Shown: positions 1,267 to 29,642 of the stretch, one piece after another
Layout of the letters: the number at the start of each line of letters is the position of its first letter
Position numbering within the stretch: the stretch's first letter is position 1
Virus record (IMG/VR): IMGVR_UViG_3300033148_002414
Coordinates: 1 to 31,937 of that record
Direction: 5' to 3' (one strand)
DNA: 31,937 bases
Source of the DNA: a virus
Made by a program: the position numbers and the translations under genes
Notes under the pieces: model-generated
What the model was told of the DNA's origin: nothing
The model's input: only the letters and a program-made list of their open reading frames with translations
Database searches by the model: none

Positions 1267-1280
1267 CAATAAAAATAACA

Positions 1281-1328: not shown

Positions 1329-1375
1329 GTTTATATGGGGGTTTTGCAAGACTCCCATATATTTTAAACTACCAA
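1322..1375 (+). promoter_or_regulatory. Structured leader hairpin before the primase-helicase
   Basis: TATATGGGGGTTTTG (1332-1346) is directly followed by CAAGACTCCCATATA (1347-1361), which pairs with it allowing two G-U pairs, leaving only a tight terminal loop. An outer stem TTGGTAAGTTT (1322-1332) pairs with AAACTACCAA (1366-1375) with one bulged A. The G-rich stem is conspicuous in A+T-rich DNA. There is no T run just after it, so a regulatory leader (translation or attenuation control) fits better than a simple terminator. The gene's ATG is 18 bases after the outer stem. Confidence 0.6.
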
Positions 1376-1393
1376 AAAAACAAACCAAACAAT

Positions 1394-5987: not shown

Positions 5988-6018
5988 AACTTATATAATA
6001 AAAATACATACAGATTAC

Positions 6019-6035
6019 AACGTATATATAATAAA
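6019..6035 (+). promoter_or_regulatory. Late promoter motif, copy 2 (terminase operon)
   Basis: The sequence is AACGTATATATAATAAA, the full consensus. The small terminase ATG begins 21 bases after the first A. It directly follows a terminator hairpin, the best positional evidence that the motif starts transcription. No conserved -35 box is shared with the other copies. Confidence 0.65.
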
Positions 6036-6039
6036 AACA

Positions 6040-6504
6040 ATGAAATACGAAGCAAAGAAAAACATAGTAATACAGATAGGAGAAGCAATAAGAAATACAG
6101 AATCACCTATCGCAGAAGTTATAGCAGAAATGGGATTAGTTTCAGTTAATTCTTTTTATAAATGGATTAGAACTGATAATGAATTAAAACAATTGTATGA
6201 AAGAGCTAAGACAGAAGCAGCAGCTAATTATAAAGATAAGATTGTAGATTTAGCAAAGAAACAGATCTATAAGAAAGTAGAACAAGGAAGTATTAGAGCA
6301 ATAGAATATGTATTAAACAATTTAAGTATGGAATTCAATCCTGATGTAAGAGAGATAAGAAAAATAATATTTAGTCAATTAATACAAGCATTAACAAATA
6401 CCAATTTAACTCAGACACAATTTGAAACAATAGTAGATAGAATGAAACAAATAGAGTTAGGTATGCCAACAGATATAACAGAAACATTACAAATTGAAGC
6501 ATAA
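6040..6504 (+). CDS. Terminase small subunit
   Basis: The 154-residue protein starts at the ATG just after late motif copy 2. Residues 1-60 contain a helix-turn-helix-like segment (MGLVSVNSFYKWIRTDNE) of the type used by small terminases to bind packaging-site DNA, followed by an amphipathic helical region (YERAKTEAAANYKDKIVDLA) typical of the oligomerisation part. Position directly before the large subunit, with an 11-base overlap, supports the call. It would recognise concatemeric phage DNA and hand it to the large subunit. The sequence resembles Mu-like and Bacteroidetes phage small subunits only in outline. Confidence 0.7.
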   Translation: MKYEAKKNIVIQIGEAIRNTESPIAEVIAEMGLVSVNSFYKWIRTDNELKQLYERAKTEAAANYKDKIVDLAKKQIYKKVEQGSIRAIEYVLNNLSMEFNPDVREIRKIIFSQLIQALTNTNLTQTQFETIVDRMKQIELGMPTDITETLQIEA

Positions 6505-8014
6505 ACAAGACATATATTATACTCAGGAAAGAGAAAATTATTATCAAAGTATAATAGAAGCACGCGTAGTCAGTAAAAGGAAAAAAGATAATCAACAAGT
6601 TATAGATGATAGAAAAGAAAAAGCATTAAAAGATTTCCAATACTTTGTTAGTACATACTTTCGACATTATATCATAAATAAAAAAGGCATTGAAATTAAG
6701 TTAGCACCTTTCCACACTGAATTAGTTCAAAAGATATTTGATAACGATCAGATAGAGATATTAGCTGAATTACCAAGAGGACATGCAAAATCAACAGTCT
6801 TTGGAATATTTCTACCTATTTGGTTAATAATAAATAAGAAGATACATAATATGGTTAGTGTCGGACCAACTGCGGATGCTGCCTCTATACAATTAATTCA
6901 TCTCCAAACAGAATTTGAGACAAATGATTTATTAATAGATGATTTTGGACCATTTAGAAAACAAGGTAATTGGAGTAAAGGTAATTTTATCATTCCAAAG
7001 TATGATGTTAAATGTAGTGCAATAGGAAAAGGTCAAAGTCCACGTGGATTCAGATATAAGAATTATAGAATAGATTTTTGTGTGGTTGATGATATTGATA
7101 CAGATAAAGAATGTAGAAACCCAAAGATAATAAAAGAACAATGGGATTGGGTATTACAATCATTATTTAATGCACTTGAAATCACAGAATATAGATTCAT
7201 CTGGGTAGGTAATAGATATGCTCATAATATGTTATTGGATAAGATGAGTAAGATGGAAGATATAGAACATGTTGTGATAAAAGCAATAGAGAATGAAAAA
7301 CCAGTATGGGAAAATAGATTTACATTAAAAGATTTAGATAGAGTAAGGAAAAAAATAGGCAAGATTAATTTTCTAAGAGAATATATGAACACTCCAATCT
7401 CAGTAGGTTCAGTATTTAAAGAAGAAGAAATAATATTTAATGAAACTTTACCATTTATACAATATGATTATATAATAACATACGTAGATCCAAGTTGGAA
7501 ACCCACTGGAGATTATAAATCATGTATAACATTAGGATTTAAAGATAGAAAGTATCATGTAATAGATGTATTTTTAAAGAAGACAACTATAAAAAAAGTA
7601 ATAGAATATCTATATGAATTAAATGATATATTAGTAGGTAGTGCATTTCGTATGTATTTTGAAGCAAACTTTAATCAAGACTTACATAAATTAGAGTTTG
7701 ATAAAGAAGAAATAATATATGGATATAGTTTACCAATTACATATGATAAATCAAAGAAACCTAACAAATTTGCTCGTATAGAATCTATGTCAGTTATCTT
7801 TGAGAATAACGAAATAACATTCAACAATAAAATTAAAAACTCACCTGATATGAATGAACTCCAAATACAATTATTAGGATTTATGCCAGGTAGTAAATTA
7901 CATGACGATGGACCAGATGCATTACAAAGTGCAAAGGTTAAATTGGACAGTCATGTAAGAAAAACAAAATTTAAACCTATGACAGGACAAAGAGAAAGAA
8001 CAAATCATTATTAA
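6494..8014 (+). CDS. Terminase large subunit
   Basis: The 506-residue packaging motor has an ATPase half with Walker A variant PRGHAKST (residues 94-101) and Walker B FCVVDDID (195-202), then an RNase H-like nuclease half with D332 (YVDPSW), E390 (MYFEAN) and D471/D472/D475 (LHDDGPDA). The ATPase pumps DNA into the prohead and the nuclease trims it. The start is TTG at 6494, because an in-frame stop lies at 6476-6478 and no ATG is available before the ATPase domain. This puts it 11 bases inside the small subunit gene, consistent with coupled translation. A non-ATG start is unusual in this genome. Confidence 0.9.
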   Translation: MKHKQDIYYTQERENYYQSIIEARVVSKRKKDNQQVIDDRKEKALKDFQYFVSTYFRHYIINKKGIEIKLAPFHTELVQKIFDNDQIEILAELPRGHAKSTVFGIFLPIWLIINKKIHNMVSVGPTADAASIQLIHLQTEFETNDLLIDDFGPFRKQGNWSKGNFIIPKYDVKCSAIGKGQSPRGFRYKNYRIDFCVVDDIDTDKECRNPKIIKEQWDWVLQSLFNALEITEYRFIWVGNRYAHNMLLDKMSKMEDIEHVVIKAIENEKPVWENRFTLKDLDRVRKKIGKINFLREYMNTPISVGSVFKEEEIIFNETLPFIQYDYIITYVDPSWKPTGDYKSCITLGFKDRKYHVIDVFLKKTTIKKVIEYLYELNDILVGSAFRMYFEANFNQDLHKLEFDKEEIIYGYSLPITYDKSKKPNKFARIESMSVIFENNEITFNNKIKNSPDMNELQIQLLGFMPGSKLHDDGPDALQSAKVKLDSHVRKTKFKPMTGQRERTNHY

Positions 8015-8017
8015 ACT

Positions 8018-9730
8018 ATGAATAATACTAAACAATCAATACAATTATTATCAGATAAACAACAAGAAATATACTCAAAAATATGTATTGTTAGAAAAAC
8101 TGTTCAATATGTTTTAACTATTGATGTAGAACCTATTGATAGTTATAATTATAATAAAGATGTTCAGAATTATGATAATACAATATATAATGTTCAATTA
8201 GCACCGAGAATAACTGTGTTTGGTAGTGCAGGAACATATAAAAGACCAAAAGTAGACTCATTAGTTATTGTTTCTTTCTTAGATAGAGAGAATGCATTTG
8301 CACATTTATTCAGTGAGTTAGAACAATTCACATTAAAACAAAGTGATATAACATGGAATTTTGGAAGGAATGGTAAAAGTAAAATAATCAACCCTAATAT
8401 ATTTAAAGTTAATGAAACAATAATAATAGAAGATAGAATATTAAAACAAAGTATAATCAATTGTAGTCATATTCATATAGAAAACCTTACTAATTCATAT
8501 ATAGATTTAAACTCTCCCAGTCCAACAAATGATTTAATTATACCATGTAATGATAATGAGAGAATATTTATAGGAAGACAATTAAATACTATACAAACAA
8601 ATCTATATACTGAGAAATTATCTTATTTCAGAAAAAAATGGGGATTATATTATTTATCTGTTTATTTACAAGGATTAAATCTATATATTAATAAACCATT
8701 TTACAACCCATTATTAATAAGATGGCTTTGGGAACAGTTAGCATTTCATCTATATGGAGACAAAAACAGATATGAAGATGCAAGAGATAATTTCTATTCA
8801 GTTTCTGAAGTATCGGTTTTACAAGGAGACTTAGTATGGAAAAAACCAATTGAACATACAGGAGAAGACCCACATGCTTATCTCGTAGAGTTTATTTCAT
8901 ATGCAACTGGAATACCATATCCAGAAGAATCAATAAACACTAATGGATTAGAATTTATTTATGATGATTTAGAAACTTCAATGAGTTGGAGTGAAATGTT
9001 AGATTTAATAGAATATAGAGAAAAAACAGAAGTAGGAATAAATCAAAGTAGAATAATAAATCAAACCCCATTAGTAAATAAAAAAATAACAGATTATAAA
9101 TTAGATTTAGGTTATGAATTAGAATTCTTAAAATTAATAACTAATACTTCTGATTTATATGATCAAGCACTTTATATATTAGACAATGAGAATTTAAACA
9201 TAACTGATATTCCTAAAAATAAACAAGATTCAGCCAACTCCAATTATTTTACTTATATGAATGGAACAGGAGTATATGATTCTAATTCAGTAATAGGATT
9301 TTTAATGTTTAATGGTTTTGATCCAATATCCAATGTAGTAGAATTGTGGGAAGAATACAATATGACATCTTATTATCTTCCATATTATAATCCGTTTTCA
9401 GTTTCTTATGATTCATTTTTTAATAATACAATTTTAAATGGAACTAATATAATTGATTACTTTACAAATTTTAGAGAGTATTTAGAAAGATTATATAATA
9501 GTGCATATGGTTTTCAACAAATAAAAATAACAGAAACAGATGAATATGGAGATAGTTTAAAGAAAATATTAGATGACTTTATAACTATATTACAAGGTTC
9601 AGTATTAACTTGGACAAGTGCTAATCCTTCTCCTCCACCTCCAAATTTTATACATATTTCAATTCCATCTACATCAATGACTCAAAATATGGTAGACATA
9701 AATACTAATACAAATAAAATATTAAAATAA
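8018..9730 (+). CDS. Paralogue of the baseplate spike protein with a replaced central region
   Basis: This 570-residue protein shares its N-terminus with the next gene: QLLSDKQQEIYSKICIVR here against QQLADKQDEIYSKIGIVR there, and VIVSFLDREN against VIVTFLDRER near residue 85. Its C-terminal about 55 residues (LKKILDDFITILQG and later NTNKIL) also resemble the neighbour's end. Between them lie about 330 residues absent from the neighbour, rich in Tyr, Trp and Asn, with no motif I recognise. The N-terminal part is the OB-like start of gpV/Mu gp45-type spikes. It may be an alternative spike, a partner in a mixed trimer, or an enzymatic or adhesin version. Its stop overlaps the next ATG. Confidence 0.55.
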   Translation: MNNTKQSIQLLSDKQQEIYSKICIVRKTVQYVLTIDVEPIDSYNYNKDVQNYDNTIYNVQLAPRITVFGSAGTYKRPKVDSLVIVSFLDRENAFAHLFSELEQFTLKQSDITWNFGRNGKSKIINPNIFKVNETIIIEDRILKQSIINCSHIHIENLTNSYIDLNSPSPTNDLIIPCNDNERIFIGRQLNTIQTNLYTEKLSYFRKKWGLYYLSVYLQGLNLYINKPFYNPLLIRWLWEQLAFHLYGDKNRYEDARDNFYSVSEVSVLQGDLVWKKPIEHTGEDPHAYLVEFISYATGIPYPEESINTNGLEFIYDDLETSMSWSEMLDLIEYREKTEVGINQSRIINQTPLVNKKITDYKLDLGYELEFLKLITNTSDLYDQALYILDNENLNITDIPKNKQDSANSNYFTYMNGTGVYDSNSVIGFLMFNGFDPISNVVELWEEYNMTSYYLPYYNPFSVSYDSFFNNTILNGTNIIDYFTNFREYLERLYNSAYGFQQIKITETDEYGDSLKKILDDFITILQGSVLTWTSANPSPPPPNFIHISIPSTSMTQNMVDINTNTNKILK

Positions 9731-10434
9731 TGAATATAAAACAATTAATTCAACAATTAGCAGATAAACAAGACGAAATATATTCTAAGATTGGTATTGT
9801 CAGAGATTTTAATTCAACAGATAAAACGGTTACTGTAGATTTATTAGAAGGAGGAACAGTATATGATGTAATGTTATCAATCGGAGGGAATAGTTATGCT
9901 AAACCAACAATTGGATCAAATGTTATAGTTACTTTTTTAGATAGAGAACGAGCTTATGTTTCATTAATATCTAATAGTGATTATACAAGAGTTGAAATCG
10001 AACAAACAGATGGAGATACTTCTGGAATAACTGTTGAAAATACAGCTGATGGACCAGTTGTTTCAGTAGATAATGTAAGTGAATTTAATGTTACTACTAA
10101 ACGAGGAGGAACAATGCAAGTATTAGGTGGAGATAATGTGGAAAGTTTTTTATTATATGATTTAGATAAAATATTATTACAGGTTGAATCAGGATCTAAA
10201 TTATTAATAGATGAAGATGGAGTAATAATGAGTGTTCCAAATGAAAGTGGAAAAATAAAAATTGGTTGTGATACATTAACAATCAAAAATATATTAACTC
10301 AGATATTAGATATGATTAAAGTAAGTAATTATATAACTATACCAACATCAGTTCCTGGAACAGCAACATTCAATGCTACATTAATACCAGCATTAGAAGC
10401 ATTACAAACAAGAATAGATAGTTTATTCGATTAA
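9730..10434 (+). CDS. Baseplate assembly protein V / spike (Mu gp45-like)
   Basis: The 234-residue protein has an N-terminal helix, an OB-fold-like domain (GIVRDFNSTDKTVTVDLL to VTFLDRERAYV), a Gly/Val-rich beta region (residues about 95-185: TSGITVENTADGPVVSVDN) that fits the triple-stranded beta-helix of a spike, and a helical C-terminus. In Mu-like phages this trimer forms the tip that pierces the outer membrane. It begins on the last base of the preceding stop. Its place between terminase and portal is unusual: Mu has the spike gene after the hub gene. Confidence 0.65.
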   Translation: MNIKQLIQQLADKQDEIYSKIGIVRDFNSTDKTVTVDLLEGGTVYDVMLSIGGNSYAKPTIGSNVIVTFLDRERAYVSLISNSDYTRVEIEQTDGDTSGITVENTADGPVVSVDNVSEFNVTTKRGGTMQVLGGDNVESFLLYDLDKILLQVESGSKLLIDEDGVIMSVPNESGKIKIGCDTLTIKNILTQILDMIKVSNYITIPTSVPGTATFNATLIPALEALQTRIDSLFD

Positions 10435-10470
10435 AAAATAAATTTAATAAGTAACGTATATATAATAAAA
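10432..10470 (+). repeat. 39-bp direct repeat, copy A
   Basis: These 39 bases are identical to 13083-13121 and include the complete late promoter motif plus about 21 bases upstream. Copy A overlaps the spike stop codon. The identity beyond the motif suggests that the promoter block was duplicated as a unit, or that the upstream bases are also functional. Confidence 0.9.
10453..10469 (+). promoter_or_regulatory. Late promoter motif, copy 3 (connector/portal operon)
   Basis: AACGTATATATAATAAA ends 1 base before the ATG at 10471; the first A is 18 bases from the start codon. Any transcript begun here would have almost no leader. Confidence 0.6.
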
Positions 10471-10896
10471 ATGTTAAAATATATTACATTAGAAGAATTA
10501 AAAGTATTCATCAAAGACAATGTTTTAGGTGATATAACACAAGATAATTATACTTTAGTAGAACAAATGGAAAAGGCATCTATATCAGAAATTGATTCTT
10601 ATATAGGTTTTAAGTACAATACTACTGAAATATTTAATAAGTCAGGTGATAATCGTAATACATTTATGGTTACTACAATAATTGATATGATACTTTTTCA
10701 TTTACATTCTCGTATTTCACCAACAGATATACCAGAAATTAGATTATTAAGGTATCAAAAAGCAATAGATTGGTTGGAACAAGTCTCAAAAGGTAAATTA
10801 ACACCTAATCTTCCAGTAATGGATTTAGAATATAATAACCGTTCTGGTGAAGATAGATTTGGTTCTGCACCAAAAGTAAATAATACATGGTTTTAA
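10471..10896 (+). CDS. Gp36-like head-tail connector (DUF1320 type)
   Basis: The 141-residue protein has the layout of Mu Gp36/DUF1320 proteins: an N-terminal YITLEELKVFI motif, a central helix with ASISEIDSYIGFKY, a hydrophobic helix (TTIIDMILFHLHSRI), and RYQKAIDWLEQVSKGKLTPNLP near the end, a hallmark of the family. These proteins sit at the head-tail interface near the portal. It directly precedes the portal gene, as expected. The ATG follows late promoter copy 3. The family match is by eye. Confidence 0.65.
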   Translation: MLKYITLEELKVFIKDNVLGDITQDNYTLVEQMEKASISEIDSYIGFKYNTTEIFNKSGDNRNTFMVTTIIDMILFHLHSRISPTDIPEIRLLRYQKAIDWLEQVSKGKLTPNLPVMDLEYNNRSGEDRFGSAPKVNNTWF

Positions 10897-10907
10897 AATA
10901 ATAAAGT

Positions 10908-12125: not shown

Positions 12126-12499
12126 TGGAAACACCTGAATTAGATAGAATAATTGCTAAATGGAAACACATAATTATTACTTTACCTAATGATATTAAAA
12201 AGATAGTTGAAGATAAAACAACAAAATCATTTAAAAACAAGTCTTGGGATAGTAAATCTTGGAAGAAAAGTAAAAATACAGGTAAAATACCAAGTTTAAT
12301 TGATACTGGTAAAATGAAATCTCAAACAAAAGTATCAACTTCTAAAAATAAAATAACAGTATTAAGTAACACAGATTATTCAAGCTATCAGAATTATGGA
12401 ACAAATAAGATACCACAAAGACAATTTGTAGTTAATGAAGAAGAATTAGAAGAAATAATTGTTAAGCAAATAGAAAAAGAACTTGACAGATTATTCTAA
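12125..12499 (+). CDS. Phage virion morphogenesis protein (Mu gpG / P2 gpS type)
   Basis: The 124-residue protein has the family pattern: basic middle (KSWKKSKNTGK), LIDTGKMKSQTKV, a short beta pair (KITVLSNTDYSSYQNYGTNKIPQRQFV) and a charged C-terminal helix. The TDYSSYQNYGTNKIPQR segment is the most diagnostic part. Members act in tail completion or head-tail joining. It begins on the last base of the portal gene stop (TAATGG overlap). The alternative description is an HK97 gp10-like protein, which belongs to the same broad fold group. Confidence 0.7.
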   Translation: METPELDRIIAKWKHIIITLPNDIKKIVEDKTTKSFKNKSWDSKSWKKSKNTGKIPSLIDTGKMKSQTKVSTSKNKITVLSNTDYSSYQNYGTNKIPQRQFVVNEEELEEIIVKQIEKELDRLF

Positions 12500-12524
12500 A
12501 TAGTTAAACATTAAACAATTAAAA

Positions 12525-13082: not shown

Positions 13083-13121
13083 TAAAAAATAAATTTAATA
13101 AGTAACGTATATATAATAAAA
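13083..13121 (+). repeat. 39-bp direct repeat, copy B
   Basis: Identical over 39 bases to 10432-10470, ending within the late promoter motif block before the protease gene. It begins at the last bases after the tail terminator stop codon. Confidence 0.9.
13104..13120 (+). promoter_or_regulatory. Late promoter motif, copy 4 (capsid operon)
   Basis: AACGTATATATAATAAA lies 23 bases from first A to the protease ATG at 13127. It heads the protease-scaffold, capsid and sheath genes, which need high expression. Confidence 0.6.
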
Positions 13122-13126
13122 TAACA

Positions 13127-14293
13127 ATGTTTAGATATATTTTAAGTACAAATGACATTAGTTCCCATGGTACAATTGTTGAAACAGCAGGAATAGATTT
13201 AAGTGAATTTGAAGAAAATCCTGTAATGTTATACAATCACAAAATAGATAAAGTTTTGGGCAAATGGAATCAAGTTATTAAAGAAGACAATAAATTATAT
13301 GGTATTGCTGAATTCGATAATACAAATGAAAAAGCAATCGAAATACAAAATCAAGTCACAAAAGATTATGTAGTCGGAGTTTCAATTGGAGCAGAAATTT
13401 TAGATGGTTATATCAGAGAGGAAGATGATGTATTAATCATAACAAAATCACTTCTTAAAGAAGCATCAATTACCGCCCTTCCTGCAAATAAGAAAGCAAG
13501 AGTGATAAAAGACACCGATTATATAATTGATGATGACTTTTATTTACAGTTATCATATGACAATGAAACAAATATTAATAAAATAAAATCCAAAATGAAA
13601 AAAGAAAAAGAAATAAAAAATACAGTATTTCATAATGACCCAAAAACACAAAAAATGAAAGATATTAAAAAAGATATTACTCCTCCTGAAGTAGAAGATA
13701 TTAAGGTAGAAGTAAAACCTCCAGTAGAAGATGTAAAAGTAGAAAAGAAAGAAAAGAAAAAAACTAAATCTACAAAGAAAAAAGTTGAACTTTCAGAAGA
13801 TATTCAAACTCTTCCTGATAGGATAGTTAAAATGCTTAGTATAGAATTAAGTGAAGGTGAAATATTACCAACTAAAATTCTTTTAAGTATTGGAAACCTA
13901 TTAAGTGAACATAAAGTATTAAAAGAAACAATAGAATTAAAAGATGAAACCATTAATAAATTAAAAAATGACATGGCAAATAAAGACATCGAAAGTTTTA
14001 TTGATTCAGCAATTGAAGACGGAAAAATAGAAGAAGAAAGTAAAGATAATTATATCAAACTTGCTAATTCTAATTTTGAAACAGTTAAAGATATTATAAA
14101 TAACATGGAAATGACAGTTAATCCAGAAATAAAATTAACTGATGAAATTAAAACGGAAGATAAAAAACAAAATGCTAAAAAATACTTAGACTACGACCCA
14201 AAAGAATTAAAAGAAATGTCAGAAAGTAATAAAGTTAAATACGATAAATTATTTAACGAACAATATCCAAAAATGGCAAAACACAATAAATAA
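13127..14293 (+). CDS. Prohead protease fused to scaffold
   Basis: The 388-residue protein has an HK97-type (U35) protease domain at residues 1-128: NPVMLYNH with candidate catalytic H38, YVVGVSIGAE with S86, and KEASITALPANKKAR. From about residue 150 it becomes a highly charged Lys/Glu chain (VEKKEKKKTKSTKKKVEL) followed by coiled-coil scaffold (KETIELKDETINKLKNDM) and a conserved-looking end before the capsid gene. The single gene would make protease plus scaffold. An internal ATG at 13594, before MKKEKEIKNT, could give a scaffold-only form, as in lambda and Mu, but this is not shown. The enzyme matures the prohead by removing scaffold. Confidence 0.75.
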   Translation: MFRYILSTNDISSHGTIVETAGIDLSEFEENPVMLYNHKIDKVLGKWNQVIKEDNKLYGIAEFDNTNEKAIEIQNQVTKDYVVGVSIGAEILDGYIREEDDVLIITKSLLKEASITALPANKKARVIKDTDYIIDDDFYLQLSYDNETNINKIKSKMKKEKEIKNTVFHNDPKTQKMKDIKKDITPPEVEDIKVEVKPPVEDVKVEKKEKKKTKSTKKKVELSEDIQTLPDRIVKMLSIELSEGEILPTKILLSIGNLLSEHKVLKETIELKDETINKLKNDMANKDIESFIDSAIEDGKIEEESKDNYIKLANSNFETVKDIINNMEMTVNPEIKLTDEIKTEDKKQNAKKYLDYDPKELKEMSESNKVKYDKLFNEQYPKMAKHNK

Positions 14294-14322
14294 ATTAATA
14301 ATAACAATTAAAATTAAATAAA

Positions 14323-15225
14323 ATGGCTTTAAATAGACAACAATGGATTAGTGAAATACAACCTAATCTTTACCCAACAAATGAATTTTATAACTACGCA
14401 AAAAACCACGATGTATATGTTAATAACAACATTGTACATATTCCGCAAGCAGGAACAATGCCTACTGCATTAATTAATCCACCAGTTCCAATATCAGGTT
14501 CGGTAAAAAGAACAGACGCTGATTTAACTTATTCTTTAGCTACTATTGTTTGTCCTGCAATGTATGTTAATTATATTGAAGAAGTAGAATTTTCATATGA
14601 TATTAGAAGTTCTTACATTAGTGATATTGTAAACACTTTAAATTCAGGAGTAGGTGATTATGTAGCTTATAACTGGGCAAATACTCCAGGAACAAACGTC
14701 GTAAGAACAAGTGGTTCATTGAGAACACCTTATGGTGCAAATCAAACAGGAACAAGACGAGCATTGACCTTAGATAATGTTAGGGAAGCACAACGAACAA
14801 TGGATTATGATGATGTTCCACAAGAAGGAAGAAAAATGTTAGTAGATGCAGGTTTATATTCAGATTTACTTCAAATTGATGAATTCGATAATAGTTATAT
14901 TCTAACAGGTAAGGCTGTAGAACAAGGTGTTGTTGGTAAAATTTGTGGATTTGATGTAATGAAACGAAGTAGAACATTATACTATGACCAAACAGCTGCA
15001 GCTAAAATTGGAGTTGGAGTAACTGTTTCAGCAACAGATAACTTAGCCGCTATTTGCTGGCATCCAAGTTTTGTAAGTCGAGCTAAAACAAATGTTAAAT
15101 TATTTGGTTTAGATAGACCAGACCCATTATATATGGAATATGTTGTTTCAGCAAATGTAAGATATGGTGGAGCTAAAATACGAACAAACGAAGAAGGTGT
15201 AGTAACTATCGTAGAACAAGCATAA
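14323..15225 (+). CDS. Major capsid protein
   Basis: The 300-residue protein directly follows the protease-scaffold gene and precedes the sheath gene, the standard place for the major capsid protein. It has an N-terminal helix (QQWISEIQPNLYP), a strand-rich body (VHIPQAGTMPTALIN, YSLATIVCPAMYVNY), a spine-like helix (YDIRSSYISDIVNTLNSGVGDYV) and a C-terminal domain ending AKIRTNEEGVVTIVEQ, consistent with a HK97-fold shell subunit. Codons and length look normal, and no N-terminal delta domain is seen, matching a scaffold supplied by the previous gene. Identity rests on context plus fold-like pattern. Confidence 0.8.
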   Translation: MALNRQQWISEIQPNLYPTNEFYNYAKNHDVYVNNNIVHIPQAGTMPTALINPPVPISGSVKRTDADLTYSLATIVCPAMYVNYIEEVEFSYDIRSSYISDIVNTLNSGVGDYVAYNWANTPGTNVVRTSGSLRTPYGANQTGTRRALTLDNVREAQRTMDYDDVPQEGRKMLVDAGLYSDLLQIDEFDNSYILTGKAVEQGVVGKICGFDVMKRSRTLYYDQTAAAKIGVGVTVSATDNLAAICWHPSFVSRAKTNVKLFGLDRPDPLYMEYVVSANVRYGGAKIRTNEEGVVTIVEQA

Positions 15226-15240
15226 TAAATAAATAAAGTA

Positions 15241-15272
15241 GATTAAGGAGTTATTAATTTAACTCCTAAATC
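15241..15272 (+). terminator. Hairpin after the major capsid gene
   Basis: GATTAAGGAGTT (15241-15252) pairs with AACTCCTAAATC (15261-15272), with one mismatch and an 8-base loop. It is followed by an A-rich rather than T-rich tract, so it may be an attenuator or RNA-end stabiliser that sets a high capsid:sheath transcript ratio. It lies 15 bases after the capsid stop. Confidence 0.55.
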
Positions 15273-15295
15273 ATAATAATAAAAAATAAAAGACT

Positions 15296-16516
15296 ATGAA
15301 TGATATTATTTTTATAAAAGGAGCTGGAGGACTTGGAAGAGTCGCAGGAGCACAGGATTATCTTTCTGGTTTAGTATTCTACGACGAAGAGTTTGAAACA
15401 ACTTCTCAAATGGTAGCATTAGGAATTTCAACATTTACTGATACATCAAGAATACATGATTACAGTAGCTTATCAGCATTTGAGACAGCAACTGGAATGA
15501 CAGAAACCAACTTACCAACTAAATTATATTGGTATCAAGTAAGAGAATATTTTAGATTAAATCCCACAGGTAAAGTATATATTGGATTGTTTACAGATAC
15601 ATCACAAATTGGTGTTCCAGTAGCAGTTGATTTTGAAGAAATAAATACTTTACAAACATACGCAGACGGAACGTTAAGACAAGTCGGAGTATTATTACAA
15701 TCAAACACATTTGCAACTTCAGATGTAGAATTAATTCAAGGAATATGTGATACATTGGAAGATGAACACATGCCATTGTCAGTTATTTACGGAGCAGATT
15801 CAGACACAATTTCAACTGGAAGTTTTGCTGATTTACGTGATTTATCAACAGTAAGTCCTAATGTATCAGTAATGATTGGTCAAGATGGAGATAATGATGG
15901 AGCAGCTTTATTTACTTCAGGTGGATTTTCGATTCCAGCAATTGGAGCAGGATTAGGAGCTATATCAAGTGCAAAAGTAAATGAAAGTATTGCTTGGGTC
16001 AGTAAATTTAACTTTTCAGGTGGAGGAGAATTAGAAAATCCTGCAATTGGAGATGGAACATTAGTAAAAGATTTAACTACAGCATCTAAAGACGCATTGA
16101 ACACCAAAGGATATATTTTCTTATTGAAACATGTTGGAATAGCTGGAACTTATGTAAATGAGAATAGCACATGTGATGTAGTCACAAGTGATTATGCTTA
16201 TATGGCAGAAGTTAGAACTATTGATAAAGCAATAAGAGGTATTAGAACAGCATTATTACCAGAATTAAACTCTCCAATACAAATTAATCCATCTGATGGA
16301 ACTATTAGTATTTATACGATTAAGAGTTTAGAAAATTTAGCTCAAAAACCATTAACTCAAATGGAAATTGATAAAGAATTAAGTGGTAGTTCAGTAACTA
16401 TTGATCCTGCTCAAGATGTTCTTTCAACTTCAAAAGTAGAAGTAACAGTAAGGTTAGTTCCTTATGCAACTGCAAGAGAAATAGAAGTAACAATTGGTTT
16501 CACAACACAATTATAA
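15296..16516 (+). CDS. Tail sheath protein
   Basis: The 406-residue protein begins MNDIIFIKGAGGLGRVAGAQDYLSG, the usual start of Mu-like/DUF2586 sheath proteins, and contains VYIGLF, DGDNDGAAL, the Gly-rich SIPAIGAGLGAISSAKVNESIAW, and a C-terminal strand region (STSKVEVTVRLVPYATAREIEVTIGF), which matches the sheath C-arm. The sheath contracts to drive the tube through the envelope, so the phage has a myovirus tail. It sits between the capsid and tube genes. Two stem-loops flank it (15241-15272 and 16527-16562). Confidence 0.85.
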   Translation: MNDIIFIKGAGGLGRVAGAQDYLSGLVFYDEEFETTSQMVALGISTFTDTSRIHDYSSLSAFETATGMTETNLPTKLYWYQVREYFRLNPTGKVYIGLFTDTSQIGVPVAVDFEEINTLQTYADGTLRQVGVLLQSNTFATSDVELIQGICDTLEDEHMPLSVIYGADSDTISTGSFADLRDLSTVSPNVSVMIGQDGDNDGAALFTSGGFSIPAIGAGLGAISSAKVNESIAWVSKFNFSGGGELENPAIGDGTLVKDLTTASKDALNTKGYIFLLKHVGIAGTYVNENSTCDVVTSDYAYMAEVRTIDKAIRGIRTALLPELNSPIQINPSDGTISIYTIKSLENLAQKPLTQMEIDKELSGSSVTIDPAQDVLSTSKVEVTVRLVPYATAREIEVTIGFTTQL

Positions 16517-16526
16517 ATAAAAAATA

Positions 16527-16562
16527 AAATTAGGATAAAATATTAAAACTTTATCCTAATTT
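16527..16562 (+). terminator. Hairpin after the sheath gene
   Basis: AAATTAGGATAAA (16527-16539) and TTTATCCTAATTT (16550-16562) form a perfect 13-bp stem with a 10-base loop, 10 bases after the sheath stop. No new late promoter motif follows, so read-through must feed the tube genes. It may be a partial terminator or mRNA end-protecting hairpin. Confidence 0.7.
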
Positions 16563-16575
16563 AAAAAATATAAAA

Positions 16576-16965
16576 ATGGCAGATACAAAATATAGCATAA
16601 GACAAGGAGAATCTATAGAATTAATTATAAATGCTTTAGATGAGAATGGATCACCATTAACCGTTTCTGGAAGTACAATAACGAATATTTTAGTGACAAT
16701 GTCAAATAAAAGTTCGATATTTGGAAAATACTCATTAAGTTCAATGGGTTCAGATTGGGGAGATTTAGAAACATCTGGAAGTGTAATAACAATTCAAGCA
16801 GAAAGAAGTAATACTAAAGATTGGGATTCTGGAGTTGCTGATACAACTGTAACTGTGGAAACATTACCAAGCGGATCAACAGATTATTCAGTATATGATT
16901 ATTTAGTAACTGACTTTTTAGAAATTTATCCTTCAACAAATGCTGGATATTCATTAATTCATTAA
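16576..16965 (+). CDS. Small beta-rich virion protein, 129 aa, unknown
   Basis: The protein starts MADTKYSIRQGESIELIINALDENG and has alternating strand patterns and many Ser/Thr (SGSTITNILVTMSNKSS, VITIQAERSN). It lies between the sheath and tube genes, 13 bases after the hairpin and 12 bases before the next start. Position and composition suggest a virion component, for example a decoration, Ig-like or tube-associated protein. I recognise no family. It contains no cysteine and no membrane segment. Confidence 0.5.
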   Translation: MADTKYSIRQGESIELIINALDENGSPLTVSGSTITNILVTMSNKSSIFGKYSLSSMGSDWGDLETSGSVITIQAERSNTKDWDSGVADTTVTVETLPSGSTDYSVYDYLVTDFLEIYPSTNAGYSLIH

Positions 16966-16977
16966 CAATAAAATAAA

Positions 16978-17415
16978 ATGGCAGATATATTAATAAACGG
17001 TAACGCATATGATTGGGCTTCTATTACACTTCAATTTAATATTGATGGGTTAGATGATAGAGTTATATATGGTATTTCAAAAATAACATATAAAGACAAT
17101 CAATCATTCCAAAACAACTATGGTCAAGGAAGACATCCTGTTTCAAGAGGAAGAGGAAATATAACAGCTGAGGCAAGTGTTACATTGTCAGCTGAAGAAT
17201 TCTTAAAATTACAAGCAGTCGCACCAGATAATGTAGTTCAAGATATTACAGAGTTCGATGTAATTGTAACTTATGCTCCACCAGGACAAGATTCAACAAC
17301 AGATACATTGCATAATTGTTTCTTAGCTGATAATGGTAGAGATGTAAGTCAAAATGATATGAACATTGAAGTAGAAGTAAACTTAAATCCATCTCATATA
17401 ACTTACGATGATTAA
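16978..17415 (+). CDS. Tail tube protein A
   Basis: The 145-residue protein begins MADILINGNAYDWASITL and carries GRGNITAEASVTLSAEEF, VQDITEFDVIVTYAPPG and DVSQNDMNIEVEVNLNPSHI at the end. The strand-rich single domain after the sheath and before the chaperone matches tail tube proteins of Mu-like phages. It forms the rigid inner conduit of the tail. The paralogue immediately downstream shares the same blocks. Its stop overlaps the next start region by 8 bases, so the two are translated in tandem. Confidence 0.65.
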   Translation: MADILINGNAYDWASITLQFNIDGLDDRVIYGISKITYKDNQSFQNNYGQGRHPVSRGRGNITAEASVTLSAEEFLKLQAVAPDNVVQDITEFDVIVTYAPPGQDSTTDTLHNCFLADNGRDVSQNDMNIEVEVNLNPSHITYDD

Positions 17416-17866
17416 GAGAGATATTTTAATAAATGGAAATGCTTATAATTGGGGGTCTATTACGGTTGTAATGGGAGGTAATCCATTATTTGGTATTTCT
17501 AATATAAATTATTCAGAAGAAATGACTGTGGTAAATTATATGAATCACAGTCCATTTCCCTCAAAACAAGGTTATGGTAATATAAATGTTGTAGCATCAG
17601 CTACATTAGATCAATATGAAATATCTATATTAGAATCTGTAGCAACAAATGCAAGAATACAAAATTTACCTCGTTTTGATATTATAGTTATATTTACTCC
17701 TGATAATAATTTATTTAGAACTTTATTTATTAAAAATTGTAAGATTAGTACAAATGGTTTTGATGCTACTCAAAATGATATGAACATTGAAACAGAATTG
17801 AATCTAAATCCAACTCATATTATACATGAATACGAAGAATTAAAATATGCAGTTGCAGAATTTTAA
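17408..17866 (+). CDS. Tail tube protein B (paralogue of the preceding gene)
   Basis: The 152-residue protein begins MIKRDILINGNAYNWGSITV and contains GYGNINVVASATL and DATQNDMNIETELNLNPTHI, matching the upstream protein block by block. The two end regions even share DNA (CAAAATGATATGAACATTGAA in both), suggesting a recent tandem duplication. It has a short extra C-terminus (HEYEELKYAVAEF). Which copy makes the tube and which is a variant, such as a tube-initiator or cap, cannot be told from sequence alone. Confidence 0.6.
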   Translation: MIKRDILINGNAYNWGSITVVMGGNPLFGISNINYSEEMTVVNYMNHSPFPSKQGYGNINVVASATLDQYEISILESVATNARIQNLPRFDIIVIFTPDNNLFRTLFIKNCKISTNGFDATQNDMNIETELNLNPTHIIHEYEELKYAVAEF

Positions 17867-17878
17867 AAACAAAACAAA

Positions 17879-18406
17879 ATGAACAAAACAAAACAGAAAT
17901 TACAGGAAAAAGGAATTAAATTTTTCCATATTATAACAGGTAATAAAAAAGAATGCTTTCTAAAAATATTAGAACGTCCATCTATTAGACGTTATTTACC
18001 TTTGTTAGAAAAAGATATTGTAAAAACAACACAATTAATCTTAAAAGAAAACTGGTTAGGTGGAGATAAAGAAATTCAAACAGACTCAGAAGAGTTTTTA
18101 TCGGCGATGTCAGTAATAAATAAAATGTTTGAGTCTAAAGATGCAACAATTAAAAAAGAAGAAAACTATTATATTATAAAAGTAGATAAATATAGTTGTA
18201 AAGTAAGGAAACCAAATATATCAGAATTGGGAACAATAATTAGTTTATCAGAAAGAGATCCAATTAAATCTAATGAAGTATTTTTAGATAAATGTTGGTT
18301 AAGTGGAGATGAAATAATTAAAACTCAAGATGATTTGTTTTTTGGAGTAAGTGCAGTATTAGGAGAAATTATAACTTTTAAAAATGCAACTTTAAAAAAA
18401 AATTAG
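17879..18406 (+). CDS. Tail assembly chaperone, short (G-type) product
   Basis: The 175-residue frame has two copies of the same unit: LLEKDIVKTTQLILKENWLGGDKEI (about residues 42-66) and ISLSERDPIKSNEVFLDKCW (about 121-140), each followed by a helix ending KDATIKK or KNATLKK. These units resemble tail-assembly chaperone domains. The gene lies directly before the tape-measure module, where phages encode a G/GT pair. The stop (18404-18406) comes just after T TTA AAA / A AAA AAA, a slippery tract, and the -1 frame stays open for 59 codons. The chaperone coats the tape measure and recruits tube subunits. Confidence 0.7.
   Translation: MNKTKQKLQEKGIKFFHIITGNKKECFLKILERPSIRRYLPLLEKDIVKTTQLILKENWLGGDKEIQTDSEEFLSAMSVINKMFESKDATIKKEENYYIIKVDKYSCKVRKPNISELGTIISLSERDPIKSNEVFLDKCWLSGDEIIKTQDDLFFGVSAVLGEIITFKNATLKKN
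18391..18403 (+). other. Slippery site for -1 frameshifting
   Basis: The bases TTTAAAAAAAAAT contain T TTA AAA (18391-18397) and A AAA AAA (18394-18400) in the reading frame, both canonical X XXY YYZ heptamers. A TAG stop in the zero frame follows one codon later. A -1 slip gives the long frame ending at 18579. Confidence 0.75.
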
Positions 18407-18579
18407 ACTTATATGAAGTATCAAAATCTAAAAATAGAGATGTAATAAGGAAAGCCAACATTGCAATAAGAAAATATTTACATATAGATCCTTCAAAATT
18501 AAGTACGGATGAATGGGCAGAAACTTTTACCTCTTTACAATGGTTATTAGAAACAGAAAATCCACAAAACAATGCCTAA
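18400..18579 (+). CDS. Frameshift extension (T-type) of the tail assembly chaperone
   Basis: This frame has no good start codon but stays open for 59 codons from the slippery tract to TAA at 18577-18579. It reads LDLYEVSKSKNRDVIRKANI and then KYLHIDPSKL...DEWAETFTSLQWLLETE, with normal charged/hydrophobic alternation. Fusion with the preceding frame would give about 233 residues. In lambda, P2 and Mu the equivalent extension is made by a -1 frameshift. The coding quality and the position before the tape measure module support a real product. Its stop overlaps the start of the GIY-YIG gene. Confidence 0.7.
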   Translation, partial: KLDLYEVSKSKNRDVIRKANIAIRKYLHIDPSKLSTDEWAETFTSLQWLLETENPQNNA

Positions 18580-19132
18580 GGGAATAATTTACAAAGCAAC
18601 AAATATAAAGAATAATAAAAGTTACATTGGACAAACAATACGAGAGTTAAAAAGTAGAAAAAAAGAACACATAAATAATAATAGTTCAACTAAATTTCAT
18701 AAAGCGTTACAAGAATATAAAGAAGATTTTAAATGGTCTATTTTATATTCTTGTAACGCTTGTTTATTAAATATGATGGAACTATACTTTATTGAAGAAT
18801 ATGATACTTTTGATAATGGTTATAATTCTGCTAATAAGGCAGTGGTAAAAGGATATAAACTTTGTGAAGAAACCAAACAAAAAATGAGTAAAGGTAGTAA
18901 AGGTAAAGGAAATAACATGTATGGTAAGCGTCATTCAGAAGAAACCAAACAAAAAATGAGGGATAAAAAAACAAATAAAACTAAATATAACTTCATACAT
19001 AAATCAGGTAAAATCGAAGATAATATAATTCAAAATGAAATGTGTTTTAAATATAACCTTAATAGAGGAAATATATATAAATTAATAAAAGGAAAAATAA
19101 AACAGTTTAAAGGTTGGAAATTAAAAATATAA
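18572..19132 (+). CDS. GIY-YIG homing endonuclease with NUMOD3 motifs
   Basis: The 186-residue protein has GIIY (residues 4-7), SYIGQT (17-22) and a candidate catalytic E70 (MMELYFIEEY), then two NUMOD3-like DNA-binding units (EETKQKMSKG and SEETKQKMRDK) and a C-terminal helix-turn-helix-like region (FKYNLNRGNIYKLIKG). The two NUMOD3 units share 23 identical bases (18866-18888 and 18938-18960). Such free-standing enzymes copy themselves into homologous sites. It sits between the chaperone frameshift frame and the tape measure gene; its ATG overlaps the last codons of the extension frame. The insertion keeps the downstream gene intact. Confidence 0.85.
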   Translation: MPKGIIYKATNIKNNKSYIGQTIRELKSRKKEHINNNSSTKFHKALQEYKEDFKWSILYSCNACLLNMMELYFIEEYDTFDNGYNSANKAVVKGYKLCEETKQKMSKGSKGKGNNMYGKRHSEETKQKMRDKKTNKTKYNFIHKSGKIEDNIIQNEMCFKYNLNRGNIYKLIKGKIKQFKGWKLKI

Positions 19133-19136
19133 AGAT

Positions 19137-20993
19137 ATGGCACAAATTAAAATAACAGCAGTATTAGATGATAAAATTACTTCTTCATTTAATAAAATAA
19201 AAAATAAGTTTGATAAGTTTGATCCAATGAAGAAAACTCGAGATGGAGTTAAAAAAACAATCATACAAACTAAAAGATTAGAAAACGAAATAGATGATAC
19301 TCGTAGAGCTATCTTAAAACTTCAAAGAACAAATCTCACAGCAAGTAAAGCTCAGCAAAAGAATATTAAAAGAGAAATTTCAGGACATAAACAATTACAA
19401 AGAGAACTAAGAGAAGATTTAAGATTAGAAAAAAGAAGAACAAGAACTCCAGGTGGATTCCAATCACAAATATCTGGTGGAGTAAGTAAAGGTATGGGAG
19501 GTATAGCAACTAAAATGGGTGGTATTGGAATAGCTATCGGAGCAGCAACTGGAGTAATGACAGTTGGAAAAAGTATTTTAGATATAACTATGAAAATGGA
19601 AACTCTAAATGCTGTATTAACAAATACACTTGGTAGTTCAGACGAAGCTGCTAAATCAATGAAAATGCTACAAGATATAGCTACTCAGACACCATTTGAA
19701 ATTGATAAACTTACAGAATCTTATGTTAAATTAGTAAATAGAGGATTCAAACCAACATCAGAAGAAATTGTTAAATTAGGTGATTTAGCTTCTTCTACTG
19801 GTAAAGATTTTGACCAATTAGCAGAAGCATTATTAGATGCACAAACAAATGAATTTGAGAGATTAAAAGAATTTGGAATTAGAGCTAAGAAAGATGGTGA
19901 TATTGTTAAATTTACTTTCAAAGGAGTAACTACAGAAGTTCAAAATAGTGAAAAGGCAATAACTGATTATGTATTAAGTTTGGGAGATGTAGAAGGAGTT
20001 ACTGGTTCAATGGCTGCAATATCAGCTACAATGGAAGGAAGAATAAGTAATTTAAGAGATATATTTACTCAAACAGCAGCTACAATTGGTTCAAAATTTA
20101 GTCCTGTCTTAATAATAGGATTGAATAAGATTATAGATTTATTAAGCAGTGGAGCGTTTAATAATGCCCTGACAAATATATTAGATTGGGGAATGGCATT
20201 TGTGGATAATATTCAAATTGCAATTGATTATTTATCTACAATGATTAGACCATTTACACGAATACTTAAATCGTTATCTGGTATATTTAGTATCTTTGGC
20301 GGTGTTACAGATAAAGCAAATGCGTTAGGAATGATAATGAAAACTGTTTCAATTGTTATGAAAGTAATAACATTTCCAATGAGAGTTATTTCTGAAGTTA
20401 TTTCTATAATTTTATCTGTTGCTATTAGAATTGGAATTGCTATTGCAAAATGGTTATTAAAATTCGAAGGAGTTAGAAAATTTATTAGATGGATTTTAGA
20501 TGCATTCAGTAATATTTCAGATTGGGTAAAAGGTATTGGGGAAAAATTTACAGCTTGGACAGGGGGCATTTCGTTTTTAACTGGTGGCTTAGATGATTTT
20601 AATGGTAGTTTATTACAAACAAAAGAAACAGCAGCGGCAGTTAATACTATTTTTAATGATACGTTTAAAAAAGTAATTGAAACAAATTCAGTTCTAAGAA
20701 GAATACAAAATAGAAAAAGATTAGGAGCTGGGATTGCTGGGGTAGTTAAACCTGAGCCCACATCAACTATGGAAGGTGGACCAGTTACTCCATCCCAAGG
20801 AGTAACTGGAAAAGACACAATATTAAAAACTGATAGAAGTGTTAAAAATATCAGTATTAATATAGCCAAAGTAAATGAAACAGGAGCAATAACTATAACC
20901 ACTCAGAATATTAAAGAATCAGCTATTAGAATACAAGAAATAGTAAATGCTGCATTACAACAAGCATTAGTAAATGCAACTGAATTATTATAA
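19137..20993 (+). CDS. Tail tape measure protein
   Basis: The 618-residue protein has an N-terminal coiled coil rich in Lys/Glu/Gln (LENEIDDTRRAILKLQ), a Gly-rich hydrophobic patch (MGGIATKMGGIGIAIGAATG), the tape-measure core NTLGSSDEAAKSMKMLQDIATQTPFEIDKLTESY, further helical stretches with membrane-like segments (IIDLLSSG and IISIILSVAIRIGIAIAKWLL), and a Ser/Thr-rich end. It sets tail length. At about 0.15 nm per residue it would give a tail of roughly 90 nm at most. The ATG is 4 bases after the GIY-YIG stop. It is short compared with many siphophage tape measures but fits a Mu-like myovirus. Confidence 0.85.
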   Translation: MAQIKITAVLDDKITSSFNKIKNKFDKFDPMKKTRDGVKKTIIQTKRLENEIDDTRRAILKLQRTNLTASKAQQKNIKREISGHKQLQRELREDLRLEKRRTRTPGGFQSQISGGVSKGMGGIATKMGGIGIAIGAATGVMTVGKSILDITMKMETLNAVLTNTLGSSDEAAKSMKMLQDIATQTPFEIDKLTESYVKLVNRGFKPTSEEIVKLGDLASSTGKDFDQLAEALLDAQTNEFERLKEFGIRAKKDGDIVKFTFKGVTTEVQNSEKAITDYVLSLGDVEGVTGSMAAISATMEGRISNLRDIFTQTAATIGSKFSPVLIIGLNKIIDLLSSGAFNNALTNILDWGMAFVDNIQIAIDYLSTMIRPFTRILKSLSGIFSIFGGVTDKANALGMIMKTVSIVMKVITFPMRVISEVISIILSVAIRIGIAIAKWLLKFEGVRKFIRWILDAFSNISDWVKGIGEKFTAWTGGISFLTGGLDDFNGSLLQTKETAAAVNTIFNDTFKKVIETNSVLRRIQNRKRLGAGIAGVVKPEPTSTMEGGPVTPSQGVTGKDTILKTDRSVKNISINIAKVNETGAITITTQNIKESAIRIQEIVNAALQQALVNATELL

Positions 20994-21010
20994 AAAAAAC
21001 ATTAATTTGA

Positions 21011-21027
21011 AACGTATATATATTAAA
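21011..21027 (+). promoter_or_regulatory. Late promoter motif, copy 5 (hub operon)
   Basis: AACGTATATATATTAAA has one difference from the consensus. It lies 27 bases before the ATG at 21038, the longest spacing of the gene-proximal copies, in the gap between the tape measure stop and the adaptor gene. Confidence 0.5.
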
Positions 21028-21037
21028 TACAATTAGA

Positions 21038-21631
21038 ATGGCAAATCCAATACAAACATTAAAACGAGTGAGTGGATTTGGTTTAGGATTGTTCTTAGAC
21101 CAAGACAATATATATCATCCTCAAGATTATTTAGATATTACAACATTATCAAGACAACTTGGAACTCCAATTGGAGATAAGTTTGTTGATTTAGTAATAC
21201 CAGTAGATGATAATACTTTTAATGAAGATATAGAAGGTTTAAAAGATACATTAAGATTAAGATTAGAAGATCCATTAATAAATATTAGTAGAACAAGAAA
21301 CATTATTAAAACTTCTATCAATGGTTTAAATGGAGAAATAATAGAGTTTATGAGCAATGGTAATTATGAATTTACTCTAAAAGGTGTAATAACAAGTGAT
21401 AAAATATGGGAATATAATTGGATTGAAATTAACAGTTTATTACAAATGTGTTCATATGGAGATAAAGCATTAAAATTAGAATCAGAATTATTCAATACTT
21501 TTTATAATATAACAGATGCTGTAATTACAGATTTTAGATTACAACCACAAGCAAACATGTCAAATGTAATAGAATATGATATTGCATTAGTAGACGATAA
21601 AAATCAAAATATATTCTTAGAAAATGTATAG
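21038..21631 (+). CDS. Baseplate/tail adaptor-like protein, DUF6046-like
   Basis: The 197-residue protein starts MANPIQTLKRVSGFGLGLFLDQ and contains a middle segment NIIKTSINGLNGEIIEFMSNGNYEFTL, typical of small Bacteroidetes phage proteins between tape measure and hub (DUF6046-like, from memory). Its position matches Mu gp43, between tape measure and hub. It probably links tail tube and hub. The last codons overlap the start of the hub gene by 8 bases. The family assignment is uncertain. Confidence 0.45.
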   Translation: MANPIQTLKRVSGFGLGLFLDQDNIYHPQDYLDITTLSRQLGTPIGDKFVDLVIPVDDNTFNEDIEGLKDTLRLRLEDPLINISRTRNIIKTSINGLNGEIIEFMSNGNYEFTLKGVITSDKIWEYNWIEINSLLQMCSYGDKALKLESELFNTFYNITDAVITDFRLQPQANMSNVIEYDIALVDDKNQNIFLENV

Positions 21632-22667
21632 ACCACAAGTAAAAATAACAATACAAAAAGGAACAGAACTCAATGTATTTTATATATATCATGTCAATAG
21701 TATTGAAATAGACCATAATATAAATAATTTAACAGATACTTGTCAAATAAAACTACCGAAAAAAGATTCTAATTTAGAAAACAATGATTTATTTTATGAA
21801 TATGCTCTTAATCATTTTATTGAAATTGGAGATAAAATAAAAGTTGAGTTAGGTTATAATGAATATAAAACAGTATTCGAAGGTTATATAAAAAGATTTG
21901 ATTTAGTTAATGATGGAGTGATTTTAGTTTGTGATGATAGTATGTATTTATTAAAGAAAGCAAATAGAAGTTTACACTCTTGGAATGATAATCCGACTTT
22001 ACGTTCTGTCATAGAAGAAATTACAAATGGGTTAGTGACATTAGATAATATATTAACTTTTTCTTTTGATAAATTAAGAGTTAAAGATTTATTGAGTCCA
22101 GCTGAAATAATACAAATGATAAGTGAGCAATATAATTTCTTTTCGTATTTTAGAGATAATAGTTTAAATGTGGGTTTTAAATATCCAACGAACATAGATT
22201 CTAAAAATTATGAATTTGCATATCCTCATGAAATTGACAGAAATCCAATAATTGTTAATAATTTACAAAGACAATATATAAACGAAGAACAATTAGTAAT
22301 AATTGGGAAATCTGTTCAGCCCAGTAATGAAGTAATTACTGCTTATGTTGATATTGATAATTTAGATGGAATAATATCAAATGACATACCTGAAAAAGAT
22401 ACAAAAATAGAATTAAATATACCAGGTTTATCAAATGATAGTATTTTAGAAATGTTAAAAAATAAATGGGAATCATTAAGTAAAACAGGATACAAAGGTA
22501 CATTTACTACATTTGGAAAACCTTATTTAAGAGTAGCTGATAAAGTAGATTTAAACTTACAATATTCTACTAATACAGAAAACGGATTATATTACATTGA
22601 TTCAGTTTATACAACATTAGATTCAAATGGATATAGACAAGAAGTAACATTGGGAAGTAAAATATAA
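21624..22667 (+). CDS. Baseplate hub protein (gpD / Mu gp44-like)
   Basis: The 347-residue protein begins with a strand domain (MYRPQVKITIQKGTELNVFY) then VNSIEIDHNINNLTDTCQIKLP, FIEIGDKIKVELGYNEYKTVFEGYIKRF, LRSVIEEITNGL and, near the end, GKPYLRVADKVDL and GYRQEVTLGSK. This is the pattern of late control gpD-type hubs, which form the trimeric ring between tube and spike. It is preceded by an adaptor-like gene and followed by a gp25-like gene, as in Mu-like modules. The start overlaps the previous gene. Confidence 0.7.
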   Translation: MYRPQVKITIQKGTELNVFYIYHVNSIEIDHNINNLTDTCQIKLPKKDSNLENNDLFYEYALNHFIEIGDKIKVELGYNEYKTVFEGYIKRFDLVNDGVILVCDDSMYLLKKANRSLHSWNDNPTLRSVIEEITNGLVTLDNILTFSFDKLRVKDLLSPAEIIQMISEQYNFFSYFRDNSLNVGFKYPTNIDSKNYEFAYPHEIDRNPIIVNNLQRQYINEEQLVIIGKSVQPSNEVITAYVDIDNLDGIISNDIPEKDTKIELNIPGLSNDSILEMLKNKWESLSKTGYKGTFTTFGKPYLRVADKVDLNLQYSTNTENGLYYIDSVYTTLDSNGYRQEVTLGSKI

Positions 22668-22685
22668 AAAATAACAAAATTTAAA

Positions 22686-22702
22686 AACGTATATATAATA
22701 AA
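22686..22702 (+). promoter_or_regulatory. Late promoter motif, copy 6 (wedge and fibre operon)
   Basis: AACGTATATATAATAAA, with the final A being the first base of the ATG at 22702. If this is a promoter, its transcript must be nearly or fully leaderless, or the motif sits farther upstream of the RNA start than a standard -10 box. Confidence 0.55.
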
Positions 22703-29621: not shown

Positions 29622-29642
29622 AAAACTAAAAAATAAAATAAA

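Follow-up and report, generated by a model that had tools for sequence, protein, structure and literature searches.

We analysed an entire virus record from IMG/VR (IMGVR_UViG_3300033148_002414), a stretch of 31,937 bp called the window here, in which a short intergenic motif recurs ahead of six gene groups and in which a sigma factor resembling those of the extracytoplasmic function (ECF) family is encoded. The record has 26% GC and 6.8% non-coding sequence, and its gene content (Mu-type portal, gp36, TerL, sheath, tape measure and baseplate hub) is that of a contractile-tailed phage. A search for a terminal repeat in the record found none, and the record may be incomplete. Among named phages the nearest are lotta8-1, FPSV-S1 and fF4, Winoviridae that infect Flavobacterium, with a related portal (30–32% identical) and a broadly similar order of virion genes. 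Because of this relationship, and because a Shine-Dalgarno-like site precedes none of the 35 window genes, the phage probably infects a member of the Bacteroidota. Genome contigs searched with the portal as query yielded no prophage, and the window gave no Rfam or tRNA match.

Six copies of a two-part motif

The 17-mer AACGTATATATAATAAA is present without mismatch at 6019, 10453, 13104 and 22686, with one mismatch at 21011 and with two at 1290. An original prediction, made from the sequence alone, had listed near-identical copies at these six positions and placed them before gene groups, and both observations hold: all six are intergenic, lie on the plus strand and head a group of rightward genes. 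The groups contain the helicase; TerS–TerL; gp36–portal–neck; protease–capsid–sheath–tape measure; the hub; and the wedge with the distal tail, and together they span nearly all rightward genes (1394–30524). A 12-mer common to all copies (AACGTATATATA) is seen six times versus 0.016 expected, and the 17-mer four times versus 0.0001 expected (order-3 Markov model, both strands). The distance from motif start to ATG at the five gene-proximal copies, given before as 16–27 bases, was measured at 16, 18, 21, 23 and 27 nucleotides (nt). At copy 1 the motif starts 104 nt before the helicase ATG at 1394, which is a better start than the TTG at 1322.

The same prediction held that the copies share no −35 box. 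This proved wrong: every copy has an AAAATAA element, with one mismatch in copies 2 and 5, whose first base lies exactly 18 nt ahead of the motif start. As chance matches are easy in AT-rich sequence, significance was assessed by random rotation of each upstream stretch, which gave p = 0.0007 with all six copies and p = 0.0012 without copy 4, left out of one test because it shares a longer flank with copy 3. A 35-column matrix spanning upstream element and core, trained on the same six sites that it scores, gives these 35.6–41.2 bits and the next best place in the window 8.2. A minus-strand site at 382 (TACTTATATATAA) does not figure among the best-scoring matrix matches and is left out of the count. 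Scanning viral contigs for the exact 17-mer returned 13 single matches in unrelated contexts and was uninformative. Late promoters of phage T4 have no upstream element, and T4 gp55 has no region 4; the putative promoters of the window, by their sequence, are two-part and unlike them. The features are collected in Table 1.

Table 1. Positions of the putative promoters, gene units and sigma factor gene in the window
Feature	Position	Strand	Description
Putative promoter copy 1	1272..1306	+	AAAATAA 1272–1278; core 1290–1306, AACGTATATATAACAAT; before helicase gene (ATG 1394), long structured leader
Predicted helicase-gene leader	1303..1393	+	Long hairpin, −25.9 kcal/mol, z −5.75
Putative promoter copy 2	6001..6035	+	AAAATAC 6001–6007; core 6019–6035; before TerS–TerL and two more genes, 6040–10434
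Unit 2	6040..10434	+	TerS, TerL, 570-aa gene without assigned function, 234-aa gene; last two located elsewhere in relatives
Putative promoter copy 3	10435..10469	+	AAAATAA 10435–10441; core 10453–10469; before gp36–portal–neck genes 10471–13082
Putative promoter copy 4	13086..13120	+	AAAATAA 13086–13092; core 13104–13120; before protease–capsid–sheath–tape measure genes 13127–20993
Unit 4	13127..20993	+	Protease, major capsid, sheath, tail genes; homing endonuclease inserted at 18572–19132
Putative promoter copy 5	20993..21027	+	AAAAAAA 20993–20999; core 21011–21027, one mismatch; before hub genes 21038–22667
Putative promoter copy 6	22668..22702	+	AAAATAA 22668–22674; core 22686–22702; ATG 22702; before wedge and distal tail genes to 30524
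ECF-like sigma factor, 182 aa	31370..31918	−	Sigma region 2 at about residues 5–95; region-4-like residues 111–176

A divergent ECF-like sigma factor

The ECF-type sigma factor that had been predicted at 31370–31918 is supported by profiles and by fold. Its protein matches Pfam Sigma70_r2 (E 1.1e-6), the PHROG sigma factor (7.5e-8) and NCBIfam ECF models (down to 1.4e-9, with alignments extending to residues 154–175). As none of the NCBIfam models reaches its curated cut-off, the protein is a divergent member of the family. The leading Foldseek matches of its predicted model are all ECF sigmas. Region 2 of Escherichia coli sigma-E superimposes on the model with a Z of about 10 (2.5–3.9 Å, 85–93 residues), and region 4 of SigR (5fgm) on residues 111–176 with a middling Z of 6.5 (65 residues, 2.8 Å). 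The protein thus has the ECF hallmarks of a region 2, a short chain without regions 1.1 and 3, and a region-4-like C-terminus, the last a moderate match in a model of low pLDDT (predicted local distance difference test). The putative promoter is not the typical ECF one, with a GGAAC-like −35 and a CGTC-like −10: its upstream element is AAAATAA, and the C of the core is not conserved in the relatives. Transcription without −35 contact, as in T4, had also been proposed; the in-register upstream element and the region-4-like domain of the sigma model speak against it.

Related phages have divergent sigmas and different motifs

A clade of related phages was gathered with portal, sheath and terminase profiles, their TerL being 49–53% identical to that of the window. 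The complete or long genomes are G001 (303-bp terminal repeat), G003 and G009 (141-bp terminal repeats), G008, G010 and G011, plus near copies; in G001 and G003, the two compared in full, the virion gene order is largely that of the window. A sigma-like protein of 162–188 aa, 13–31% identical to the window sigma, is present in all six relatives. Single-sequence sigma searches of viral contigs, phages and relatives gave no match, and profiles were needed. In leave-one-out profile searches the sigma ranked first among all open reading frames of every genome (E 1.2e-10 to 9.9e-19), the runner-up never falling below 0.004, and since each sigma is picked first in this way, the predicted sigma family is real and present in all seven genomes. 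The C-terminus of the G001 sigma has no predicted helix-turn-helix and lies in a low-confidence region of its model. A clear ECF sigma gene that exceeds the NCBIfam cut-off, and that may be of phage or host origin, is found in the record of a distant relative, G005 (L178/L179; portal 30%; gene at 29617–30276, minus strand).

Five of the six relatives have a repeated intergenic motif of their own before comparable genes, and its sequence differs in each. The G001 motif (AAAAGTATATATAATATAA) stands before TerS, the protease and a wedge-region gene, with a fourth copy before a leftward non-virion gene. That of G003 (GTGTGTAATAGGTA) precedes TerS, the capsid and a wedge-region gene, with GCATTT 19 nt upstream at each, and that of G010 (TTAATATATAAA) is found before the terminase genes, before a gene of capsid size and ahead of other units; most of its copies have TTTAGT 20 nt upstream. 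In G008, AAACACCTTATATAAATATAA is found ahead of the terminase region and of a 386-aa gene with AAAATAATTTT upstream; the G011 motif AAAATAATTTTTTGAATAAACAGTATATAATAT (also given as AAACAGTATATAATAT) follows AAAATAATTTT before a 411-aa gene, and there is a partial second site. By rotation test the upstream blocks of the window, G003 and G010 are significant (p 0.001 or less) and no upstream element is detectable in G001 (p 0.415); site numbers in G008 and G011 are too small for the test. The original prediction had proposed searching related phages for its motif: repeated motifs are indeed found in five of the six sigma-bearing relatives, with sequences that differ from the window's. Its likening of CGTATA in the motif to the CGTC core of ECF promoters found no support, as the C is not kept in G001 (AAAAGTATATATAATATAA) and G003, G008 and G010 use other cores.

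Other repeats and genomes were also considered. A G009 repeat (L133), CCCCTGTAATAA, was at first taken for a promoter and was rejected, being largely within inverted repeats; it occurs about ten times, mostly between genes (885–1067, 4067–4165 and other gaps), often as inverted pairs, and is an interspersed palindromic repeat. G003 (L033/L034) has a second motif, TTTTTTGAATATATAATATAAA, before leftward genes on the minus strand (33473 and 31024 in the oriented record), possibly a separate early promoter class. In the Winoviridae Flavobacterium phages none of the clade motifs was found, and a sigma was not found there in a search with a single sequence only. G023 (portal 45%), in which neither a convincing sigma homologue nor a repeated motif was found, was taken up as a sigma-less control and dropped; host-type promoters are not significantly enriched in it, and its record may be a fragment.

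A phage sigma factor as the probable reader of the motif

The position of two start codons bears on how the core would be read. The ATG at 22702 of the window and that of the G001 wedge-region gene each lie two bases after TATAAT, and both N-termini align with those of homologues. Reading TATAAT as a standard −10 element is disfavoured because RNA would then start inside these two start codons, and a start set by GTATAT is favoured. With GTATATA as the element bound by region 2, and with the 6–8 bp distance known from phage phiEco32, RNA would start 10–12 nt after the conserved G, that is, 1–3 nt ahead of the copy 6 ATG and 3–14 nt ahead of those of copies 2–5; the spacing of start codons at all sites is compatible with a start 6–9 bp after the core element. 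The start register of the original prediction is therefore retained as the favoured one, and the CGTC-like core that it gave as the reason is not.

We consider it probable that the phage sigma redirects the host polymerase to the replication and virion operons through this promoter class. The six copies would form one class, composed of AAAATAA and of a core, AACGTATATATAATA, that starts 18 nt further on. The ECF-like sigma would associate with the core RNA polymerase of the host, region 2 of the sigma reading and melting the GTATATA part and region 4 probably contacting the A-rich upstream element. Leaders of about 1–14 nt are expected at the five gene-proximal copies and of about 90 nt at the helicase copy, and the host polymerase would thereby be turned to the replication helicase and the virion operons. 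As to timing, which we infer like the pairing and the start positions, the original prediction had described a late-transcription circuit; one copy precedes the replication helicase gene, which argues against a purely late class, and the fourth G001 copy stands before a leftward non-virion gene.

Several points weigh against this explanation. The pairing of sigma and motif rests on their co-occurrence in a small clade, and no promoter-like motif was found when G009 was searched for one, though G009 has the sigma. Confidence in the window sigma model is low (pLDDT 60), and the G001 protein has no convincing sigma fold match among those ranked by Foldseek, its assignment coming entirely from profiles. 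The promoter of the sigma gene itself falls outside the record. The core contains TATAAT, so that some use by a primary sigma is possible. Furthermore, the predicted leaders are 1–5 nt at two copies, short for flavobacteria, in which the median leader is 24 nt and 5.5% are leaderless (PMC9723704).

The TATAAT sequence, present in four copies and replaced by TATAAC and TATATT in the other two, could alternatively make the motif a strong host-type promoter that is read by the host primary sigma, with the phage sigma acting otherwise. The G003 motif TTTTTTGAATATATAATATAAA before leftward genes fits this, in that TATAAT-like promoters may be a general feature. We regard such a promoter as unlikely, however: TTGACA-like hexamers 15–19 nt from TATAAT match at only two to four of six positions, RNA would begin within the two start codons described above, and the Bacteroidota −7 box TAnnTTTG occurs in none of the 14 window upstream regions. 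Moreover, the relatives use different cores at comparable places while presumably facing the same kind of host sigma. The Bacteroidota promoter (TTTG/TAnnTTTG) is not enriched in any clade member, and there is no genome-wide excess of the two boxes.

The closeness of the motif to the ATG raises a second possibility, namely that it is a site for another phage activator or acts at the RNA level, as a translation enhancer or processing site. There is no Shine-Dalgarno site here, so A-rich sequence could serve translation, a role reported for A-rich sequence before the ATG in Bacteroidetes (PMC6847099). But the distance between motif and ATG varies from 16 to 104 nt, copies stand solely at the first gene of groups and the upstream element keeps a fixed spacing; sister phages, too, have different sequences at comparable positions, which a translation signal does not explain. 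We therefore hold this possibility to be quite improbable. A T4-type late system, in which a sigma that lacks region 4 is helped by a clamp and recognises one −10-like element, would suit an AT-rich core near the gene start and G001, with its undetectable upstream element (p 0.415) and no helix-turn-helix predicted at the low-confidence end of its sigma, but is most improbable given the significant upstream element and region-4-like sigma end of the window, where no clamp-like gene was noticed, although clamp and gp33-like proteins were not looked for systematically.

Comparison with known systems

T4 late transcription (gp55, gp33, gp45; reviewed in PMC2988020) likewise combines a phage sigma-family protein with short AT-rich promoters before virion genes; the window differs in its upstream element and region-4-like sigma end, and by these two features, the ones tested, it is not a T4-type late system. 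Closer parallels are the phages phiEco32 and 7-11: at similar positions in the two genomes, their divergent sigmas, which share about 15% identity, recognise different promoters (PMC8948821). As in these phages, several copies of a phage-specific motif precede virion operons in the window and a sigma is encoded in the same genome. The sigma of Salmonella phage 7-11 (SaPh711_gp47) has region 4 and reads two-part, multi-copy promoters before late operons (GTAAtg-(16)-aCTA; PMC8948821), which diverge from those of its sister phage at similar genome positions. By analogy, the window resembles 7-11 in its region-4-like sigma and two-part promoter; 7-11 differs in its enterobacterial host, its other virion type and larger genome, and its promoter sequences are unrelated to the window's.

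The E. coli phage phiEco32 shares with the window a small sigma (phi32_gp36) and multi-copy promoters, in its case before middle and late genes (tAATGTAtA; PMC8948821). Furthermore, AATGTATA resembles AACGTATA, and the start codons here would be compatible with initiation 6–8 bp past the element. In contrast to the window, its promoters consist of a single element, gp36 is without region 4 (PMC8948821) and a co-regulator, gp79, is known. G001 may resemble phiEco32, to judge from the low-confidence C-terminus of its sigma model, where no helix-turn-helix is predicted.

Neighbouring genes

The hairpin predicted in the helicase-gene leader was not equalled in stability by any of 200 shuffles. Elsewhere, the leader of a leftward gene in G001 is somewhat structured (z −2.4), and in other relatives three leaders did not reach significance. 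G001 encodes a protein of about 410 aa (L008:416–1663, minus strand), with an apparent homologue in G003 (oriented 32100–33329, minus strand); neither Pfam nor PHROGs gave a match for the G001 protein, and family-A-polymerase-like stretches were seen in it by eye. Its gene in G001 sits behind a copy of that phage's own promoter motif.

At 8018–10434, between TerL and gp36, the window has two genes, one of them of the wedge region, that follow the hub genes in G001 (18035–20375) and G003 (18979–21388), a block move. About 38 bases are identical between promoter copies 3 and 4, so that a promoter may have been copied along with this move. An NlpC/P60 hydrolase gene at 5457–5924, possibly for lysis, has its G001 homologue between TerS and TerL. 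The homing endonuclease gene between the tail genes is of GIY-YIG type, with a weak G003 homologue elsewhere (12370–12855).

Implications for the phage clade

A few phages of E. coli and Salmonella are already known to have an arrangement of this kind, and phage sigmas with promoters of their own have been demonstrated for few phages; in open-access text we found none from Bacteroidota phages. The more interesting part is a clade with at least six promoter sequences. We tentatively suggest, though with somewhat less than even confidence, that this clade, with virion proteins about 50% identical, has diversified into at least six sigma–promoter specificities at comparable operon positions, G001 perhaps having lost the upstream element and sigma region 4 together. 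If so, the clade would be a natural series for tracing the joint change of a sigma and all its promoters. With seven related genomes that encode divergent sigmas, and a motif identified in six of these genomes, it can be tested directly how a phage changes the specificity of a sigma when several promoters have to follow. Moreover, the sigma–promoter pairs could serve as independent promoters in Bacteroidota, where such tools are few.

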